From assembly GCA_016196825.1 (NCBI GenBank), contig JACPWY010000051.1, positions 37,294-101,293 on the forward strand: a stretch of 64,000 nucleotides of DNA, given 5' to 3'. The stretch is from Deltaproteobacteria bacterium. Its GTDB lineage: Bacteria > Bdellovibrionota > FAC87 > UBA2466. The stretch's first letter is position 1. Every line of letters starts with the position of its first letter. A program made the position numbers and the translations under genes. This document shows positions 4,569-53,688 of this stretch, piece after piece. A model generated the notes under the pieces. It was not told the origin of the DNA and searched no databases. It saw only the letters and a list, made by a program, of their open reading frames with translations.

Positions 4569-4682
4569 GGCAACGCCTAACCGGGGCCGAAATAGCCAAA
4601 TTGGACAAAACGATACCAAGTTTGCGCTCTATCCCCTCGAAGAACCCGTGGAACGCCCCTTGCATTCACTTGGGTGGGAGGA

Positions 4683-5702
4683 GGCACTATGAGGCTACTG
4701 TTAGTAAGTTTGTTCACTAGTTGGGCCTTCGGGGGACCAGCGGTATCCTTGTCCCAGCTTCGTTATTCCGGAACGGGCTGCCCAGCGGGCTCGACGAGCT
4801 CGCTCTTTTCGCCTGACGGAGAGGTCCTCACCCTGCTTTTTTCTGATTATGTAGCCTCCCCTAATGAAATCCGTTCTTGTGCGATTGATTTCGAGCTGAG
4901 CTATGAGCCGGGCTGGGCGTTTGCGGTGTACCGTACCGATCTTCGTGGCTACGCCACGGCAGAATCCGGCGCCTCGGCACTTCAGGATGTGGGCTTCCGG
5001 ATCGGTAACGGACCTTATCATTTGTTTGCGACTCAGACTCTGAGAGGACAATATGATTCCAATTACTTCTTTCGCTACGTCGTAGGGGGGAGCGACTTGA
5101 GTTTTTCGAGTTGTCCGTCGACTCAACAACGGATCAAGCTGCGCACGTCGCTAAGGACTCTCGGGAATGCCGTTATGACGGTTGATTCCATCGATGGGTC
5201 CGTGGAACAGCAGTACCGTATTGCTTGGAAACGCTGCGGAGATGCGCCTCCTGGCGCAGGCACTCTTCCACTTTATAGAGCGTATAACCCCAATGCCGAC
5301 TCTCACTTTTACACGACAAATCCCTACGAGTACCGTTCCGTCGTGGCACGAGGTTATCGCGGTGAGGGTGTTGCGGTCCTGGTGAGCCGAACAAAGAGCC
5401 ACCCTTCTCTTTCCGCTATTCACCGACTCTATAACCCCAATAATGGCCGCCATTACTACACCACCAATAGCGCAGAAAAAAACAGTCTGGTCACCCTGGG
5501 ATGGCGCCACGAAAAGGATGAAGGCTATTTGTACGTAACCCAGGTCGTGGGCACCGAGGTCGTTAATCGTCTCTACAATCAAAAAACCGGGGGACACCTC
5601 TTCACAGCTAATGAGGCAGAGGCCCATTACCTTCTCAGTTACCCTGGCACTCCATGGAAACTGCACAGTCCGTTGGGCTATGGGTTGACTGAGATCGAAT
5701 AG
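4683..5702 (+). CDS. Exported protein with DUF4360-like N-terminus and three DUF5648-like repeats
   Basis: RYSGTGCPAGSTSSLFSPDGEVLTLLFSDYVASP (DUF4360-like) followed by LYRAYNPNADSHFYTT, IHRLYNPNNGRHYYTT and VNRLYNQKTGGHLFTA repeats. Track ORF begins 4674; start near 4683-4689 is approximate. Confidence 0.65.
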   Translation, partial: GTMRLLLVSLFTSWAFGGPAVSLSQLRYSGTGCPAGSTSSLFSPDGEVLTLLFSDYVASPNEIRSCAIDFELSYEPGWAFAVYRTDLRGYATAESGASALQDVGFRIGNGPYHLFATQTLRGQYDSNYFFRYVVGGSDLSFSSCPSTQQRIKLRTSLRTLGNAVMTVDSIDGSVEQQYRIAWKRCGDAPPGAGTLPLYRAYNPNADSHFYTTNPYEYRSVVARGYRGEGVAVLVSRTKSHPSLSAIHRLYNPNNGRHYYTTNSAEKNSLVTLGWRHEKDEGYLYVTQVVGTEVVNRLYNQKTGGHLFTANEAEAHYLLSYPGTPWKLHSPLGYGLTEIE

Positions 5703-5723: not shown

Positions 5724-5746
5724 CTGGTTTCCATTTCTGAAACCGG
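5724..5746. promoter_or_regulatory. Dyad site A: CTGGTTTC-CATTTCT-GAAACCGG
   Basis: Read directly; 79 nt before the GTG start of the 5826 gene; shared with sites B, C and D. Confidence 0.6.
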
Positions 5747-5825
5747 TTCCTCCCATCCAAGAGCTTTTTGAATTAGCTGTTATCGGAGCGTGCTGGTATT
5801 CCTCAATCCGCCTGAGGAGTAAAAT

Positions 5826-6452
5826 GTGCAAAAGTCATTGGTAAGCTGTTTTGGAATAGTTTTTCTGCTGGCGTCTCCAGCTTTCGCAGAGGCCTTCGTC
5901 GGTTACTCTTGGAGTAACCAAGTGGTTGAGGCTGGTCCGGGCCAGACAGGCGTAGTCTATTTGGGATTTGGGAGTGCGCCAGTTTATGGAACCCCGCCTC
6001 CGATAAAAGTCATTCCCAGACCACCGACCAGTCAAAATTGCGCCGCGTTCGCGGGAAAATATCAATTATACGTCGAACCAGGAAAAAGATCCTGGCTCAT
6101 GCCTGGTTCTGTAATGCAGATCAATGCAGATTGCGGACTTTTGGCGAGGGCCAAATTGAACGGCATTCCCTACGTGTTTCATATGGAAGGCTACCTGAGG
6201 CGATACCCGGGGAGTAGTTCCTGGTACTACGATCCTGGCGCTTATAGCGCATGGCCGGGTTGCACCGCGAGGGCCGAGCTGTTCATCGAACCCCACGCAG
6301 CCGAGGGGATTGCAATTCCTCCCTACTATTCGAGCATCTCCGCAGCCCTCCGCTATGAAATTCCATATTCAGATGTCTGCCAGGTGGACTACACGGTAGA
6401 CACCAATTCCGACCACCTTTACAGAGTCGCCCAGGCATTGCCAGTTCCCTGA
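5826..6452 (+). CDS. Exported protein of unknown function
   Basis: GTG start with upstream GAGGAG; signal peptide MQKSLVSCFGIVFLLASPAFAEA. Confidence 0.6.
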   Translation: MQKSLVSCFGIVFLLASPAFAEAFVGYSWSNQVVEAGPGQTGVVYLGFGSAPVYGTPPPIKVIPRPPTSQNCAAFAGKYQLYVEPGKRSWLMPGSVMQINADCGLLARAKLNGIPYVFHMEGYLRRYPGSSSWYYDPGAYSAWPGCTARAELFIEPHAAEGIAIPPYYSSISAALRYEIPYSDVCQVDYTVDTNSDHLYRVAQALPVP

Positions 6453-6467
6453 GTGACTTTTCAGAAA

Positions 6468-6490
6468 CTGGTTCCAAACAATGAAACCAG
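6468..6490. promoter_or_regulatory. Dyad site B: CTGGTTCC-AAACAAT-GAAACCAG
   Basis: Read directly; 88 nt before ATG 6579. Confidence 0.6.
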
Positions 6491-6578
6491 AAATTCTTGA
6501 CGTGTCTCTCCGTGTTATTCAGATCCAGGTGCTAGCCTTGCCACAATAAAGTTCCATCTCAGCCACCGAGGAGCCAGT

Positions 6579-7524
6579 ATGAAATGCAATCGATCACCAT
6601 TAGCACCAATTGCAATGATCTTCTTCCACATCATCGCAGTCGGTGCGGCCGTGGCCGTTAATCCCGTAATTATTGAGAAGGATCGTCAGCAGGCGATGGC
6701 GGTAGCAACGGATGGGAAGAGGGTATTCTGGAGCGAATTCGAACGTTCTTCGTTTAGAGGAAGGATCATGTTATTTCCTATATTGGACTGTTCAAGGTCA
6801 ATCGAGCGGACAGCTGTTACGTTTTGATCTCCAAACCGGAAAGGCAATGGTCCTTGCGGAGTATCTGGCGAATGCCTTCGGCCTCACTCAGGACTCCGAG
6901 TATGTTTACTTTGGAACCGAGGACTACAACCACCTGGGTGGGGCAGACGCGAGCATTGTTCGAGTCGCCAAAGCTGGGGGAAAGGTCGAAACGATTGCGG
7001 CCCATCAGGTTTTCCCTTTTAGGTTAGCAATAGCTGGTGACTACGTTTATTGGACCACCTACCAGGAGTCAGGCCAACTCATGCGGGTGCGACGAGCTGG
7101 TGGACCAGTTGAACTTCGGGGCTATGGTATCCGTTACCCCGACGCCCTAGCCGTGGATTCAGACAATGTATACGTGGGCGGCCGTGGCGATCAGACAGTT
7201 TATGCCTTCGCTCACAACAATCAGCAGGAGCCGTCAGTTCTCTATAGAGGGGAGATAGCAACGGGAATCAGCGATATGGTCCATTTTGGAGAGAGTCTTT
7301 TCTGGGTCGATGACAGCAGCAGTGGTTTTGTCGCGCGCCTTCCGGTTGGGGCGCAGACGTCGGTGAATTCGCTGCCACAGACAGCAGCCCCCACGTCCCC
7401 TAGCTTGTCGTCGAGCTTTCCAAAATTGGTTTATAACCGTGATGAAAAACGGGAGGTGCGCGTACAGTCGGACGTGTTCCTTCCGTACCAAGTCGTGAGC
7501 AAGAGTCAGTTACGGTCCTATTGA
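6579..7524 (+). pseudogene. Exported beta-propeller-like (YWTD/NHL-like) protein split by a frameshift
   Basis: ORF 6579..6827 (signal peptide plus first blade, ATDGKRVFWSEF) continues in the +1 frame as ORF 6712..7524 (YFLYWTVQGQSSGQLLRFDLQTG...). The frame change lies at about 6740-6780. Confidence 0.6.
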
Positions 7525-7581
7525 ATCTTTGCTGAGAAATGAGCCTGTGAAATATTTGCAGTGTAGAAGAGTTCCTTGCCA

Positions 7582-8322
7582 ATGAGGCGACGGCATTTCG
7601 TCCTTGGGTGTTTCCTGGCAAGTTATATTGTGACTGCGAGAACAATTCTCGTTCTTGCGCCCCACCCGGACGACGCCGCCCTTTATGCAAGTGGAGTAAT
7701 CTACGCTGCTCATCAAAGAGGGGACGTGGTGAAGATCGCGTTTCTGACCAACGGTGATTTCTATACCGATATCGACGATCACTATGTTGAAAGAGGTTTG
7801 AAGCTTGAGGAAGAAACGGTGGCCTCCATGGCGGAGCTTGGGCCTCAGGCGGAGGACCTACTTTTTTTGGGCTATGGCGATACAACCACGGAGTTCATAT
7901 ACCATAGGAAGGACGAAACAAGCGTTGTCACCTCTCCTGCGGGCGTGAGTGCCACCTATGCGCAGTATGGGCTAAATCGGCAATCCTTTCATGAGACAGT
8001 GTTTGGCTCCCCCGCCCCTTATGTGAGAGGGAATATCCGCGCCGACTTCAGAAAGATTCTTGAGATCCATCGCCCCGATGAGATCTTTGCAACTCATTTG
8101 GTTGATGAAAACCCGGATCATGCCGGAGTGTACCTCTTCCTGTACGATGCCCTGGTTGCCTTTAGCCGTACCGAGATGGGGAAGTTTTATAACCCTGCGG
8201 TTTACTGTGGAATCGTTCATGCTCCCAATGAATCAGACTGGCCTCAAAAACCAGGATCACAATCAAAGCCCTTTGCCCGGCCGAAGTATCTGGAGCTTAC
8301 CGCTCGTCGGCCTGGTTTCTAG
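7582..8322 (+). CDS. PIG-L/LmbE-family deacetylase
   Basis: ILVLAPHPDDAALYASGVIYAA, the PHPDD signature, and later HPDH-like NPDHAGVY. Confidence 0.75.
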   Translation: MRRRHFVLGCFLASYIVTARTILVLAPHPDDAALYASGVIYAAHQRGDVVKIAFLTNGDFYTDIDDHYVERGLKLEEETVASMAELGPQAEDLLFLGYGDTTTEFIYHRKDETSVVTSPAGVSATYAQYGLNRQSFHETVFGSPAPYVRGNIRADFRKILEIHRPDEIFATHLVDENPDHAGVYLFLYDALVAFSRTEMGKFYNPAVYCGIVHAPNESDWPQKPGSQSKPFARPKYLELTARRPGF

Positions 8323-8334
8323 ATTGGAAACCAA
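8312..8334. promoter_or_regulatory. Dyad site C: CTGGTTTC-TAGATTG-GAAACCAA
   Basis: Read directly; overlaps the stop of the PIG-L ORF; 82 nt before ATG 8417. Confidence 0.55.
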
Positions 8335-8416
8335 TTACTTGGTTATGGCGCGTTAGTTGTGGACGCCATTTCCGTCGTTCTGCTATTGGTTCCGCTAACA
8401 AGTGCTGGAGCCAAAG

Positions 8417-8896
8417 ATGAGCAAATTACTTTTAGTTGCGATGGGGATGGTGATCGTCGTAAGCCAGGGGCGGGCAACCGATGAAGAGCCGGTAAAGAAA
8501 TTGGCGACGGGTAAGGACCTGGTCCAGACACTCTCAGAGATTCTTCCCGCTGAAACGGCTCGTGGAAAGCTTCGAAATGGGGATGACTGCCAGGTCACTT
8601 TTCATCACCAAGCTGTCAGCAAAGTGGCTGTGATTTCAATCGAAGGGATCCAGGATGATGATGTGCATTCGTTCATCGGAATTCACGCGAAAGATATTCT
8701 TACACTCACGGAAAGCTCGAATGAGGGCACCAGCTTTTTTCGATACGAATACTCCCCATCGAAGCGTCCGATTAATGTGACCCGAAATGCATTCTTTTTA
8801 ACACTGACCAAAAGCGATCTTGGTTTTGAAGTGACCCTCAGTAAAACGGGCAAGCGCCGTCACGCACTTACCTGTCGGGTGGGGTGGCGTGAATAA
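8417..8896 (+). CDS. Exported protein of unknown function
   Basis: Track ORF 8402..8896; ATG 8417 with GGAG RBS; MSKLLLVAMGMVIVVSQGRA signal. Confidence 0.55.
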   Translation: MSKLLLVAMGMVIVVSQGRATDEEPVKKLATGKDLVQTLSEILPAETARGKLRNGDDCQVTFHHQAVSKVAVISIEGIQDDDVHSFIGIHAKDILTLTESSNEGTSFFRYEYSPSKRPINVTRNAFFLTLTKSDLGFEVTLSKTGKRRHALTCRVGWRE

Positions 8897-8912
8897 TTGG
8901 AGGAGGTATCTT

Positions 8913-9314
8913 ATGAATCGATCGACTGCTCTGTTGATGGTGTGTGCTCTTTCTCTTCCGGCACTTGCCGGCCATCAGTCCCCGGAAACCGTCATTAAGG
9001 AGACTACTCTGACTTATTGTTACATTATTCCTGAGTATACAACCACACAGGCGGTGATTGAGAGAAACCCGGGGATATCTGGACTCCGCGCGATAACCAA
9101 CTATGGCGTCGGAGTGCGTGCAAGGGTGCTCATCTTGGTTGTGAACTCGTTAGGCACAATCGTGTACGAAAAGGAGCAAAACACCGAGGCGATTACCTTC
9201 AACAAGATTGCGAGCGATTACTTTGAGGCAGAAAATGAAGCCATCAGCCAACTCAGGAGGAGAGTCGAGGCCTATCGAACTGACCTCAAGCCGTTTGCGT
9301 GCGCCGGCAACTGA
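8913..9314 (+). CDS. Small exported protein of unknown function
   Basis: ATG 8913 after GGAGG; MNRSTALLMVCALSLPALAG signal peptide; 17-nt gap from the previous gene, so likely an operon. Confidence 0.55.
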   Translation: MNRSTALLMVCALSLPALAGHQSPETVIKETTLTYCYIIPEYTTTQAVIERNPGISGLRAITNYGVGVRARVLILVVNSLGTIVYEKEQNTEAITFNKIASDYFEAENEAISQLRRRVEAYRTDLKPFACAGN

Positions 9315-9385
9315 CGCAGTAAATGACGATTCCCCGTTTTGGCGGTGTTCAGGCACGGGAACAAATTGTGTCATCTCGAGCTCCG

Positions 9386-10414
9386 TCAGTTCCATCGGCA
9401 ATCATAGTTGGAGAAGCGCAACCGTATCTCGTCAACCAGCGCCGAGGCGCCCTGTTGGCGGTAATTGTCCAGGGGGGCCATTGTCAATTCTTCAATCTGG
9501 AAAGGGAGCGCGCCACCCAGGATGTCGGCCCATTGTTCTTTCTCTAACAGAAGAGCGGCTCCACCGGGTGGTTGTACGATGGGGACTGCGCGATTTCTAA
9601 TCAAGAAGCCCGATACAAATGAAGATTTGATTTTCAGGTTTGTGAATCCCTCGGTGCGGGACACCTGAAAGAGGTGACCGCGAGAATTGGTGCAGTGAAA
9701 CGTCTCCCCGGGAATGGACCCATATTGGCATTTCAGTGACTCGGCCAGCTTATGCCTGAGCCTGCCATCCTGAGGATTGATCGAAAGAAACGCATCGGCC
9801 CGCTCTGAATTATCTTCCGCAGGGGCCAATTCAAATGTGATTGTTCCGCTAATCACGGGCTCTGTGTCGGAGTCGTTAACAATTGTCCGATATTCGCAAA
9901 CAGGCAATTTGCCTTGATAATAACTGCCCCAGGTTGTAACCCTCGGGAAGGCACTGAGGACAATGATCTCAGAGATCGAGTAATCGTCATCGCGGCGATC
10001 GTTCATCAATGACACAACTTCATGAATCACCAGTTGCCACCGGCGGTGCTCATCTCGCAAGCTCTGCCAACGAGCTCGCTGAACGATGATCTTTTGGTAC
10101 CCTGGCTGGTTCTCAGCGTCCTTTTCTTTTCCATCAATTGTAATGATCTCAGAGGTTGATTCAATCTTGGCGGTTTCGATTATTCGGCAAAATTCTTCTG
10201 CTGATATGGAGCTTGGGTGCTCTAAGAGCCATTGGCATACCCTCCTGCCTGTGTTCCTGAATTCGGCCACGAAGCCATCGCCGCCGTGAGCATCATTTCC
10301 CTGAGGGGAAACAGTGGTGGGACTGCCCTGAGAGATTGTTCCCATCGGCGCCGTGGAATTAATGCGCGTGCATCCCAACGCTAAGGTTACCAAAGTTAGG
10401 ACTGCGTACTTCAT
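9386..10414 (-). CDS. Lipoprotein with GGDG-xxAEF and HEVVSL motifs; partner of the TIGR02147 regulator
   Basis: MKYAVLTLVTLALGC lipobox; HGGDGFVAEF; VIHEVVSLMNDRRDDDYSIS; overlaps the upstream regulator by 4 nt (ATGA). Confidence 0.65.
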   Translation of the reverse strand: MKYAVLTLVTLALGCTRINSTAPMGTISQGSPTTVSPQGNDAHGGDGFVAEFRNTGRRVCQWLLEHPSSISAEEFCRIIETAKIESTSEIITIDGKEKDAENQPGYQKIIVQRARWQSLRDEHRRWQLVIHEVVSLMNDRRDDDYSISEIIVLSAFPRVTTWGSYYQGKLPVCEYRTIVNDSDTEPVISGTITFELAPAEDNSERADAFLSINPQDGRLRHKLAESLKCQYGSIPGETFHCTNSRGHLFQVSRTEGFTNLKIKSSFVSGFLIRNRAVPIVQPPGGAALLLEKEQWADILGGALPFQIEELTMAPLDNYRQQGASALVDEIRLRFSNYDCRWN

Positions 10415-11181
10415 GAGTTCTCCTTCGAAGAGGCAAAGAGTTGAACGGTCAGATTGAAAACCTGGCGTGGCGTACCCAGCTGCTCGAGCTCACTTGTTAG
10501 TTCTCTGCGAAATGTTTGGATGCGGGCCTTGGCGTAGGGCAAGAGAGCGGGGTCCATCGCAAAGGTCGTGGAGGTGTGGTCACGTTTTTCGAGCGGTTCA
10601 TTTTCCAGAGATTCAACTGCCTTTTGGATCAGCTGGAGCTGAAACCTGCGTGTGGCCGTTGTAGAGTGCCGGGGATCCAATCGAAATGATTCTTTCGTCT
10701 GTCGCCAGCGGCCATCTTTATTTTGCGCGATAATTCCAAGCCGGATCAAGCGGTCGATCGCAAGCCCCGCTTCGAGTGGAGAGAGATTCAATTGCCGAGC
10801 AATCCACTGCGCCTCTAAACGGGCGTTGGGCAATTCCAGGAGGCTGAGGATCGCAAAATGGTACCACTCAGCGATGACCGCGAAGGTGTCCAGGTCCATC
10901 GGGGAGGGCTCACTGACAAATGCCGTCGTCCCATTTGAAGAAAACAAAGCCTGGGCTTCCGTCGGGCTCAGAGCGAGTTGAGCGGCAACGCTGATCGCAG
11001 CCTTTTTTGAGAGGGGGCGCTTGCCGGACAGCACAAGAGAAAGGACCGTGTGACTCATTCCTAGCGATCGGGCGAAGGCTCGTTGGCTATACCGTGGATT
11101 TTTTTCGCTACGGCGCTCGAGTTCCTCCTTCAAAAGCTGCCGTGGCTCGAGGCGTGAGGTCTGTGACTTAACTGGCTCCAT
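10411..11181 (-). CDS. TIGR02147/DUF4423-family regulator
   Basis: N-terminal HTH RYSQRAFARSLGMSHTVLSLVLSGKRPLS, plus central LSPLEAGLAIDRLIRLGIIAQNKDGRW. Confidence 0.75.
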   Translation of the reverse strand: MEPVKSQTSRLEPRQLLKEELERRSEKNPRYSQRAFARSLGMSHTVLSLVLSGKRPLSKKAAISVAAQLALSPTEAQALFSSNGTTAFVSEPSPMDLDTFAVIAEWYHFAILSLLELPNARLEAQWIARQLNLSPLEAGLAIDRLIRLGIIAQNKDGRWRQTKESFRLDPRHSTTATRRFQLQLIQKAVESLENEPLEKRDHTSTTFAMDPALLPYAKARIQTFRRELTSELEQLGTPRQVFNLTVQLFASSKENS

Positions 11182-11229
11182 CGAGGCAAGGGGAATAACA
11201 TATTGGAATCTTGAGTCTCAACACCAAAA

Positions 11230-11247
11230 TGAAACCAGTTGGTTTCA
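11230..11247. promoter_or_regulatory. Perfect dyad TGAAACCA-GT-TGGTTTCA upstream of the TIGR02147 gene
   Basis: Read directly; 48 nt upstream of the 11181 start; same GGTTTC/GAAACC half-sites as sites A-D but with inverted arrangement. Confidence 0.6.
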
Positions 11248-11339
11248 AAGCTAATCACTGGCCCAATAACTTATAAATTCAATTACTTCTGCCAGCATTA
11301 AGGCGAGGGTTTAATGCAATTGTTTCAGTCTTGGGAATA

Positions 11340-12239
11340 TCAAGGGTTGTTGAATTGGGGAGGGACGGTGGTCTGACCATATTCATTGTCTCCCCAGCAT
11401 GTCACCGTGCCAGCATCTAGAGCACAGGTGTGTTGTCCACCCGCAGACACCTGGCGAGGGTTTCCAAAAATGGGAACACTGTTCCCACCATTGCCATCAA
11501 ATCCCCAACACTCTAGCCCATCAGCACCTAGCGCGCAGACATGCCCACCACCCACGGAAATTGTGTTTGGTTCTCGGACAGAGGGAACATTGGTCTGGCC
11601 CCACCCATTATATCCCCAACATTTCACGCCATCGGCATCCAGCGCACAGGCGGTTAAACTATTTGTAGATATTTGGCGTGGGTTTCGAAGAGGGGGAACA
11701 TTACTCTGGCCCCATTCATTATATCCCCAACACTTAACTCCATCGGCATCCAACGCACAGGTGTGAAGGAAACCTGCTGAAATTTGGAGTGGTTTTCTAA
11801 GGGAAGGAACCACGGTTTCTCCTCTTGGATTATTTCCCCAGCACTTAACTCCATCGGCGTCCAACGCGCAGGTATGAAGGAAACCTGCTGAGATTTGGCG
11901 TGGTTTTCTTAAGGGAGGGACGCTAGTTTGACCAAATTCATTGTCTCCCCAACACCTTGCTCCATCGGCATCCAGCGCACAGACATGCTTACCGCCGGCG
12001 GATATTTGGCGTGGTCTTCGAAGGCGGGGAACGTTGATTTGGCTAAACTGATTATCTCCCCAGCACTTTACTCTTCCTTTTTTCAGTCCACAGGAAAAAT
12101 AATTCCCGCTTGAGAGCATTACCTGTGCGGAAGCTACGTCTTCGACCAACTGAGTATGATGGTCGCCACCGAAACAGGATTTTGGATGAGTAACAAGTTC
12201 CCCAAGCAAAAGTAATAAGATTAATCCAAAATGTCTCAT
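11340..12239 (-). CDS. Exported RCC1-like repeat protein
   Basis: Tandem 37-aa repeats CWGDNxxGQxxVPxLRxPRQISAGxxHxCALDADGVK. Confidence 0.75.
   Translation of the reverse strand: MRHFGLILLLLLGELVTHPKSCFGGDHHTQLVEDVASAQVMLSSGNYFSCGLKKGRVKCWGDNQFSQINVPRLRRPRQISAGGKHVCALDADGARCWGDNEFGQTSVPPLRKPRQISAGFLHTCALDADGVKCWGNNPRGETVVPSLRKPLQISAGFLHTCALDADGVKCWGYNEWGQSNVPPLRNPRQISTNSLTACALDADGVKCWGYNGWGQTNVPSVREPNTISVGGGHVCALGADGLECWGFDGNGGNSVPIFGNPRQVSAGGQHTCALDAGTVTCWGDNEYGQTTVPPQFNNP
11345..12090. repeat. 111-bp tandem repeats inside the RCC1-like gene
   Basis: Neighbouring units keep long identical stretches, e.g. cacttaactccatcggc[ag]tccaacgc[ag]caggt[ag]tgaaggaaacctgctga. Confidence 0.6.
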
Positions 12240-12333
12240 TGATATTCTCCCAAGACGCCGCTGCTCTTTTCCAGATTAGGATGGGGGAGAATCTCTAGTG
12301 ACATTGAGTATAAAACAGCACCGATTGAATAAT

Positions 12334-12356
12334 GTGGTTTCACATTTTGAAACCAC
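12334..12356. promoter_or_regulatory. Dyad site D: GTGGTTTC-ACATTTT-GAAACCAC
   Basis: Read directly; extends outward to TGTGGTTTC/GAAACCACA; 94 nt upstream of the 12239 start; TATACT lies 21 nt further downstream on the minus strand. Confidence 0.65.
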
Positions 12357-52890: not shown

Positions 52891-53688
52891 ATGAGCCCAG
52901 CGGAAAAAAAACGCTCATATTTTCGGCAGTCTGAGACCCAGGAGTTCATTCGGGGGTTTCTCCTCAACGAGCTTCTCAAGAGGTGTAAGACCAACCCTAG
53001 ATACTCCTTGCGATCCTTCGCGAAGCGAATCGGTATGAGCCCGGGAATGCTTAGCCAAGTGCTCAAATCGAAGAGAAACCTCTCAGAAAAGCTCGCTCAA
53101 AGGGTGAGTAGATCCTTGGACTTCAAGCTGCCCCTTGGGGCGGCAGAATCGCTTCAGTTTAATCGACTTTTGGGTGACCATTTTAGGGTCATCACCGACT
53201 GGTACAACTTCGCCATCCTTGAACTCCTGAGCATCAAGGGCACGGATGCCGATCCGAAAGCTATCGCCAAGACTCTGCACATTTCTCCCGCTGAGGCCCA
53301 GACTGCGATAGCCTGTTTGGCGCGCTTGGGTCTGATTGAGCAGACGAAAGAGGGGAGTTGGCACAATGTCTCCGGTCACAACACAGTACTGGACGACGAG
53401 AGTGTTGCTGACGCACGTAGGCTGCAACAGATCCAGATTCTAAAGAAAGCACTGGAGGCTTTGGAAAATGTTCCTATCGCCCATCGGGACCAATCATCGA
53501 TGATCCTAGCCGTCGATAGAAAGCTGCTTCCGGAGGCTCGGCGGCGCCTCACGAAAATGCGACGGGAGCTGACCCAGTTTCTCCAGAGTCAGGGAGAAAC
53601 GAACGATGTCTATTGCCTGTCTTTCTCCTATTTTCCACTCACGACTCTTTTCGAGGCGGAGGAGCCCAATGCTAGAAAACACCATTAG
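52891..53688 (+). CDS. TIGR02147/DUF4423-family regulator
   Basis: NPRYSLRSFAKRIGMSPGMLSQVLKSKRNLSEKLAQRV; LHISPAEAQTAIACLARLGLIEQTKEGSW; same layout as the 10411..11181 protein. Confidence 0.75.
   Translation: MSPAEKKRSYFRQSETQEFIRGFLLNELLKRCKTNPRYSLRSFAKRIGMSPGMLSQVLKSKRNLSEKLAQRVSRSLDFKLPLGAAESLQFNRLLGDHFRVITDWYNFAILELLSIKGTDADPKAIAKTLHISPAEAQTAIACLARLGLIEQTKEGSWHNVSGHNTVLDDESVADARRLQQIQILKKALEALENVPIAHRDQSSMILAVDRKLLPEARRRLTKMRRELTQFLQSQGETNDVYCLSFSYFPLTTLFEAEEPNARKHH

Follow-up and report, generated by a model that had tools for sequence, protein, structure and literature searches.

The window analysed here is a 64,000-nucleotide (nt) stretch of a Deltaproteobacteria bacterium genome from the Bdellovibrionota (assembly GCA_016196825.1, contig JACPWY010000051.1, positions 37,294 to 101,293 of the forward strand). 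It contains four inverted repeats built from the half-sites GGTTTC and GAAACC with a 7-nt spacer, designated dyads A to D. These dyads are very probably operators of a TIGR02147/DUF4423 regulator encoded among them, which would control itself and a set of exported proteins. An earlier note on this DNA had named the TIGR02147 protein as a candidate binder. Three independent lines of sequence evidence now point to it: a site in the regulator's own promoter, conservation with its orthologues, and a correlation between recognition-helix residue and half-site. The principal features are as follows.

10411..11181, minus strand: regulator gene, TIGR02147/DUF4423 protein of 256 amino acids
11193..11221, minus strand: predicted regulator promoter from the consensus of family promoters, -35 TTGAGA (11221-11216), 17-nt spacer, -10 TTATTC (11198-11193)
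11230..11247, minus strand: predicted everted autogenous operator, TGAAACCA-AC-TGGTTTCA, 48 nt 5' of the regulator start codon
5724..5746, plus strand: dyad A, CTGGTTTC-N7-GAAACCGG, 5' of 5826+ (exported 208-amino-acid protein)
6468-6490, plus strand: dyad B, CTGGTTCC-N7-GAAACCAG, 5' of 6579+; 6464..6490 with an extra half-site
8312..8334, plus strand: dyad C, CTGGTTTC-N7-GAAACCAA, 5' of 8417+
12334..12356, minus strand: dyad D, GTGGTTTC-N7-GAAACCAC, 5' of 12239- (exported protein with RCC1 repeats)
9386..10414, minus strand: lipoprotein-like exported protein (GNDAHGGD...), the partner of the regulator; its start codon overlaps the stop codon of the regulator gene

Dyads and the regulator's own promoter

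All four dyads were present where the earlier note had placed them. Its start-codon distances of 79, 88, 82 and 94 nt hold when counted from the 23-bp dyad (81, 90, 84 and 96 nt from the 19-mer). Dyads A and B have a third half-site that the earlier note had overlooked (GGTTCC at 5745-5750 and GAAACT at 6464-6469, respectively). Dyad C shares sequence with the final codons of the PIG-L open reading frame (ORF) before it. Exact matches to GGTTYC-N7-GRAACC numbered four in the window versus 0.02 expected from dinucleotide shuffles, which bears out the claim that four copies within 6.6 kb are very unlikely by chance. Genome-wide statistics were obtained from pattern searches. The whole genome (3.54 Mb, 74 contigs) contains seven exact matches, four of them dyads A to D; the other three (contigs C19, C43 and C44) all lie inside ORFs. 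For four of seven matches within 6.6 kb the Poisson probability is ~1e-9, for a cluster picked after being seen. When GGTTTC and GAAACC were searched with spacers of 0 to 20 nt, 7 nt was the sole length recurring at non-coding sites with unrelated spacers. Copies with a 10-nt spacer (four in the genome) were mostly one repeated sequence. The element GGTTTCGTAGCGAGCGGAAACC (N10), in four copies on contigs C16, C20 (twice) and C43, has a constant spacer and is a repeat unrelated to the N7 dyads.

The site at 11230-11247, overlooked by the earlier note, consists of the dyad half-sites placed back to back in the regulator's own promoter. TGRAACC-N4-GGTTYCA has a single match in this genome (G000) and a single match in that of Bdellovibrionaceae bacterium nzgw169 (G003), which represents another genus of the same family. 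There the regulator orthologue (75% identity) has an identical arrangement upstream, with the everted site 47 nt 5' of the start codon (48 nt in G000). Orthologues from four further genomes, of which G367, G149 and G260 represent three further families of the phylum, have the following upstream sequences.

G001 (52% identical): TGGTTTC-N6-GAAACCA-CAT-TGTTTTC
G367 (~50% identical): TGGTTTC-ATTTTTT-GAAACCA-CTT-TGTTTTC
G149 (~50% identical): TGGTTTC-ATCATTT-GAAACCA-CTT-TGTTTTC
G260 (~50% identical): CGGTTTC-N8-GAAACCA-GTT-TGTTTTC

The comparison with related genomes that the earlier note had proposed thus found the half-sites kept 5' of regulator orthologues in five other genera and four families. 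In the whole G149 assembly, exactly one GGTTTC-N7-GAAACC occurs, and it lies in the regulator promoter. Because dyad and everted half-sites are joined in these promoters, the dyad and the everted site can be read as two parts of one composite operator. An operator-like site in the own promoter, conserved in orthologues, is the mark of an autoregulating factor and was found here.

In the proposed mechanism, the N-terminal XRE-type helix-turn-helix (HTH) would read the half-site GGTTTC/GAAACC, with His44, the first residue of the recognition helix, selecting GG(T) where most paralogues would take TG(T). The half-sites would be used in two arrangements. Target promoters, and the regulator promoter of several orthologues, would carry the inverted one, spaced by ~7 nt; the regulator's own promoter would carry the everted one, in which 2-4 nt separate the CA/TG ends. 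Both could share one half-site, giving the three-half-site composite TGGTTTC-N7-GAAACCA-ctt-TGTTTTC. In this way the protein would control its own gene, the exported partner transcribed with it, and a small group of exported proteins whose membership changes quickly.

Recognition helix and predicted operators across the TIGR02147 family

The regulator scores above the curated cut-offs of TIGR02147 (108.7 bits versus 50) and DUF4423 (130.4 versus 30). Its N-terminus is a five-helix XRE (HigA-like) HTH, with predicted helices at residues 13-27, 33-40, 44-52, 59-68 and 73-81, followed by a winged-helix-like C-terminal domain. The Pfam HTH_3 score (21.8) is just below its cut-off of 23, and the HigA model score (17.2) is below the cut-off of 47.7. 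In the structure model (predicted local distance difference test score 90), the HTH superposes on DNA-bound HigA with 2.1 A over 68 columns. The recognition helix comprises residues 44-52 (LGMSHTVLS), and His44 is placed at the start of helix 3. At this position, repressors of the XRE type, 434 among them, contact bases, and the first recognition-helix residues set specificity.

In the training set, proteins with His at the first helix position had GGT/ACC-type half-sites in a ratio of 6:0, and those with other residues had TGT/ACA-type half-sites in a ratio of 35:1. The prediction was fixed beforehand and applied to 109 fresh genes, which gave 9 G to 4 T for His and 1 G to 33 T for other residues (p=4.8e-6). 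Grouping the proteins at 45% identity left the correlation intact (p=2.6e-6). None of 14 other helix positions was as informative about the type of half-site as position 44. Judged from these sequences, the helix code links TIGR02147 proteins to the sites more directly than proximity alone.

TIGR02147 matches numbered 18 in G000 and up to 22 per genome among the 59 genomes searched. Palindromes with arms of at least 6 nt within 80 nt were found at 55% of 117 TIGR02147 genes from the 59 genomes, versus 24% of 176 control genes. Since the palindrome scores pass over imperfect sites, the proportion of operator-bearing genes is a minimum estimate. The sequence ACA-N3-TGT was present upstream of 29% of the genes in this first set versus 2.7% of controls; changing the spacer to 2 or 4 while keeping these letters, or keeping spacer 3 with different letters, gave little or no such excess. 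The result was repeated in 33 of the 109 genes (30%) from genomes not used before. Pooled over the phylum, 67 of 226 TIGR02147 upstream regions had the sequence versus 6 of 220 controls (p=4e-16). Inverted TGTnnn/nnnACA pairs are spaced by 7-10 nt and everted pairs by 3 nt, and each paralogue has half-site flanks of its own. The idea that N7 is the spacer throughout TIGR02147 was rejected: everted N3 dominates, together with inverted N7-N10.

With start codons set by rule, the centre of the everted core lies at a median of 52 nt (mode 51-54) 5' of the start codon in 72 genes. Alignment on this core placed TTG(A)C at +16 and TAaaaT at +39, with 17-nt spacing and the end ~7 nt before the start codon; the predicted family operators are located directly 5' of the -35 box. 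A Shine-Dalgarno-like tetramer was found in only 2 of 36 everted-core genes. Given this -10 position and the scarcity of Shine-Dalgarno-like tetramers, TIGR02147 regulators are probably transcribed leaderless. In the window, the predicted -10 of the regulator lies 11 nt ahead of the start codon, near-leaderless as in the family.

The intact paralogues examined in G000 each have their own palindrome or none. Those found, by contig, are listed below.

C2: TGTTTC-N7-GAAACA
C58: TGTTCC-N7-GGAACA
C47: GTATCC-N7-GGATAC
C43 and C60: TGGTGA/TCACCA

A dyad on C43, 286 nt 5' of the closest paralogue, was rejected as an operator because it lies inside a 535-amino-acid ORF. A second TIGR02147 gene in the window (52951-53634, plus strand) has its own upstream palindrome, GTAAAC-N5-GTTTAC. 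At locus L083 (7200-8597), a divergent pair of TIGR02147 genes, one apparently truncated, has a common region with TTCACCAGAT-N7-ATCTGGTGAA and TGGTGA-N6-TCACCA. At locus L086 (G000 C2:40300-41400), a small exported-protein ORF lies between a TGTTTC-N7-GAAACA-N3-TGTTTC composite operator and a TIGR02147 gene, so that the partner order is reversed relative to the window.

Exported genes behind the dyads

The genes following dyads A to D are listed below. Exported products were found at all four, as the earlier note had claimed; the frame that starts at 6579+ stays open for just 82 codons, and the gene resumes in a different one.

5826..6452, plus strand: target A, exported 208-amino-acid protein
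6579..7524, plus strand: target B, exported protein with an interrupted reading frame (break between 6712 and 6827)
8417..8896, plus strand: target C, exported 159-amino-acid protein
11340..12239, minus strand: target D, exported protein with RCC1-type repeats

In target B, 6579-6827 (82 codons with signal peptide) overlaps a second frame with the remainder (6712-7524); this is either a frameshifted gene or an assembly error. Target genes have Shine-Dalgarno sequences and leaders. A fixed promoter position was rejected for them, and the TATACT 21 nt past dyad D, which had been read as placing the dyad just upstream of a promoter, was not repeated at the other targets.

With up to one mismatch to TGGTTTC-N7-GAAACCA, six sites were found genome-wide in G000 and six in G003. 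Those in G000 are dyads A to D, C19:32619 (~96 nt 5' of an exported protein) and one in coding DNA. The G003 sites, which were not preselected by the earlier note, are as follows.

C309:5159: 66 nt before an exported protein
C309:603: 117 nt before the start, or 96 nt to the first in-frame start
C431:6412: 118 nt before the start
C304:2788: 69 nt before the start
C387:27119: ~80 nt before the start
Sixth site: in coding DNA

The genome-wide scan proposed earlier as a check for random scatter found none: ten of the twelve sites (five of six per genome) lie 66-118 nt 5' of ORFs bearing signal peptides. About 2% of background positions lie 60-120 nt 5' of a signal-peptide-like start, which gives P ~2e-8 for five of six in G003 alone.

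Target A has no relative among 39 related genomes. The only relative of target C among them is encoded at G003 C309, in second place in an operon headed by a dyad, so the regulon is not wholly private. No distal dyads at non-autogenous targets were found within ~10 kb in G149, G260, G367 and G202, so that evidence for the wider regulon comes from G000 and G003 only. Sequence comparison suggests that the regulator is retained while its exported targets change. The partner gene product carries an export signal and has no Pfam or NCBIfam match; its G003 orthologue is 43% identical and in the same position. The bicistronic layout of regulator and exported partner also occurs in G149, G260 and G295. 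Treating the partners of all orthologues as one family was rejected, as the G149 partner is without significant BLASTP similarity and that of G295 is weakly similar.

Weight of the evidence and relation to known regulators

Several observations weigh against operators of this regulator. About half of the TIGR02147 genes are without a recognisable palindrome, and among the 19 His proteins that could be scored, 4 have palindromes of the TGT type. A close orthologue in G202 has no perfect palindrome upstream. The own promoters in G000 and G003 have the everted form only, which requires that one protein accept both arrangements. No significant common -35/-10 position relative to the dyads was found at the target promoters. 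Finally, exported status was assigned by a hydrophobicity rule on N-termini, not by SignalP, and the DNA around the regulator is rich in exported genes anyway.

It is unlikely that another regulator, such as one of the other TIGR02147 paralogues, binds the dyads. The family is large and related, and His also opens the recognition helix of the C43 paralogue (50% identical). The remaining paralogues, however, have private palindromes of their own (C43/C60, C58, C2 and C47), the everted GGTTTC site occurs only in the promoter of this gene, and GGTTTC tracks its orthologues across families. RNA hairpins of the preceding genes, acting as weak intrinsic terminators or 3'-end stabilisers, are a very improbable explanation. 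The perfect 8-bp stems with 7-nt loops do fold at -7 to -12 kcal/mol, and dyads A and B lie 22 and 16 nt behind stop codons, as does one G003 site (16-22 nt). No U-tract or T-run follows dyads A to D, though, so the GC-rich stem plus U-run of an intrinsic terminator is absent. Moreover, the same six letters recur across genera and families, also 5' of the regulator gene and everted, which a terminator would not need, and the half-site letters covary with the recognition helix of the regulator. Chance clustering in a repeat-rich or AT-rich stretch can practically be dismissed: the cluster was chosen by a pattern-seeking reader, but the shuffle expectation is far below four, two unselected genomes repeat the pattern, replication across genera already refutes chance, and the prediction made in advance held on fresh genes.

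Comparative sequence analysis shows the sites, where they lie, that they are conserved, and the helix code; for the TIGR02147 protein as operator-binding regulator, we infer binding, the sign of regulation and a signal. It is somewhat more probably an activator contacting RNA polymerase, and otherwise a repressor; activation is favoured because the family operators lie directly 5' of the -35 box.

An XRE-type autoregulator with palindromic operators is of a known kind; the regulator family, the composite operator and the layout appear undescribed. Like HigA and other XRE antitoxins and the phage repressors lambda cI and 434, the regulator has short palindromic operators in its own promoter, along with the HigA-like HTH. 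It differs from them in the fused second, winged-helix-like domain, in predicted operators located 5' of the -35 rather than over the promoter, and in its co-transcribed partner, which is exported; no HigB toxin gene was recognised next to it, the adjacent partner being an exported protein without family match. Rgg/ComR-type XRE activators combine an XRE HTH with a larger C-terminal regulatory domain, an operator abutting the -35 and targets that include exported products. The regulator shares these traits, but its C-terminal domain is DUF4423 instead of TPR peptide-binding repeats, and no peptide pheromone gene was identified.

Scores above the curated cut-offs of both libraries place the regulator in TIGR02147 (Fsuc_second) and Pfam DUF4423, a family that here gains an operator architecture and a partial recognition code. 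In the literature covered, which includes few subscription papers, no paper naming TIGR02147 was found, nor any operator, target or function of TIGR02147/DUF4423. DUF4423 appears once, in a Bdellovibrio proteome table (PMC12546842).

TIGR02147/DUF4423 proteins are among the most expanded regulators here, and now have an operator architecture, a helix position that predicts the half-site, a promoter layout and a first candidate regulon. Targets could thereby be assigned by computation to orphan regulators of this class in predatory bacteria and related organisms. We give even chances to a broader reading in which the family has expanded in Bdellovibrionota into many regulators that are insulated from one another. 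Every member would read its private version of one composite operator (inverted N7-N10 plus everted N3, with a shared half-site), set at a constant distance from a leaderless promoter, and would drive a small exported-protein module of its own. If this is true, sequence could be used to predict how dozens of orphan regulators in each genome are wired, since the half-site letters are partly readable from the recognition helix.

The gene at 4674-5702 encodes a protein fusing DUF4360 and DUF5648. Relatives of each half occur separately, at dyad or paralogue loci (L077 and L086).

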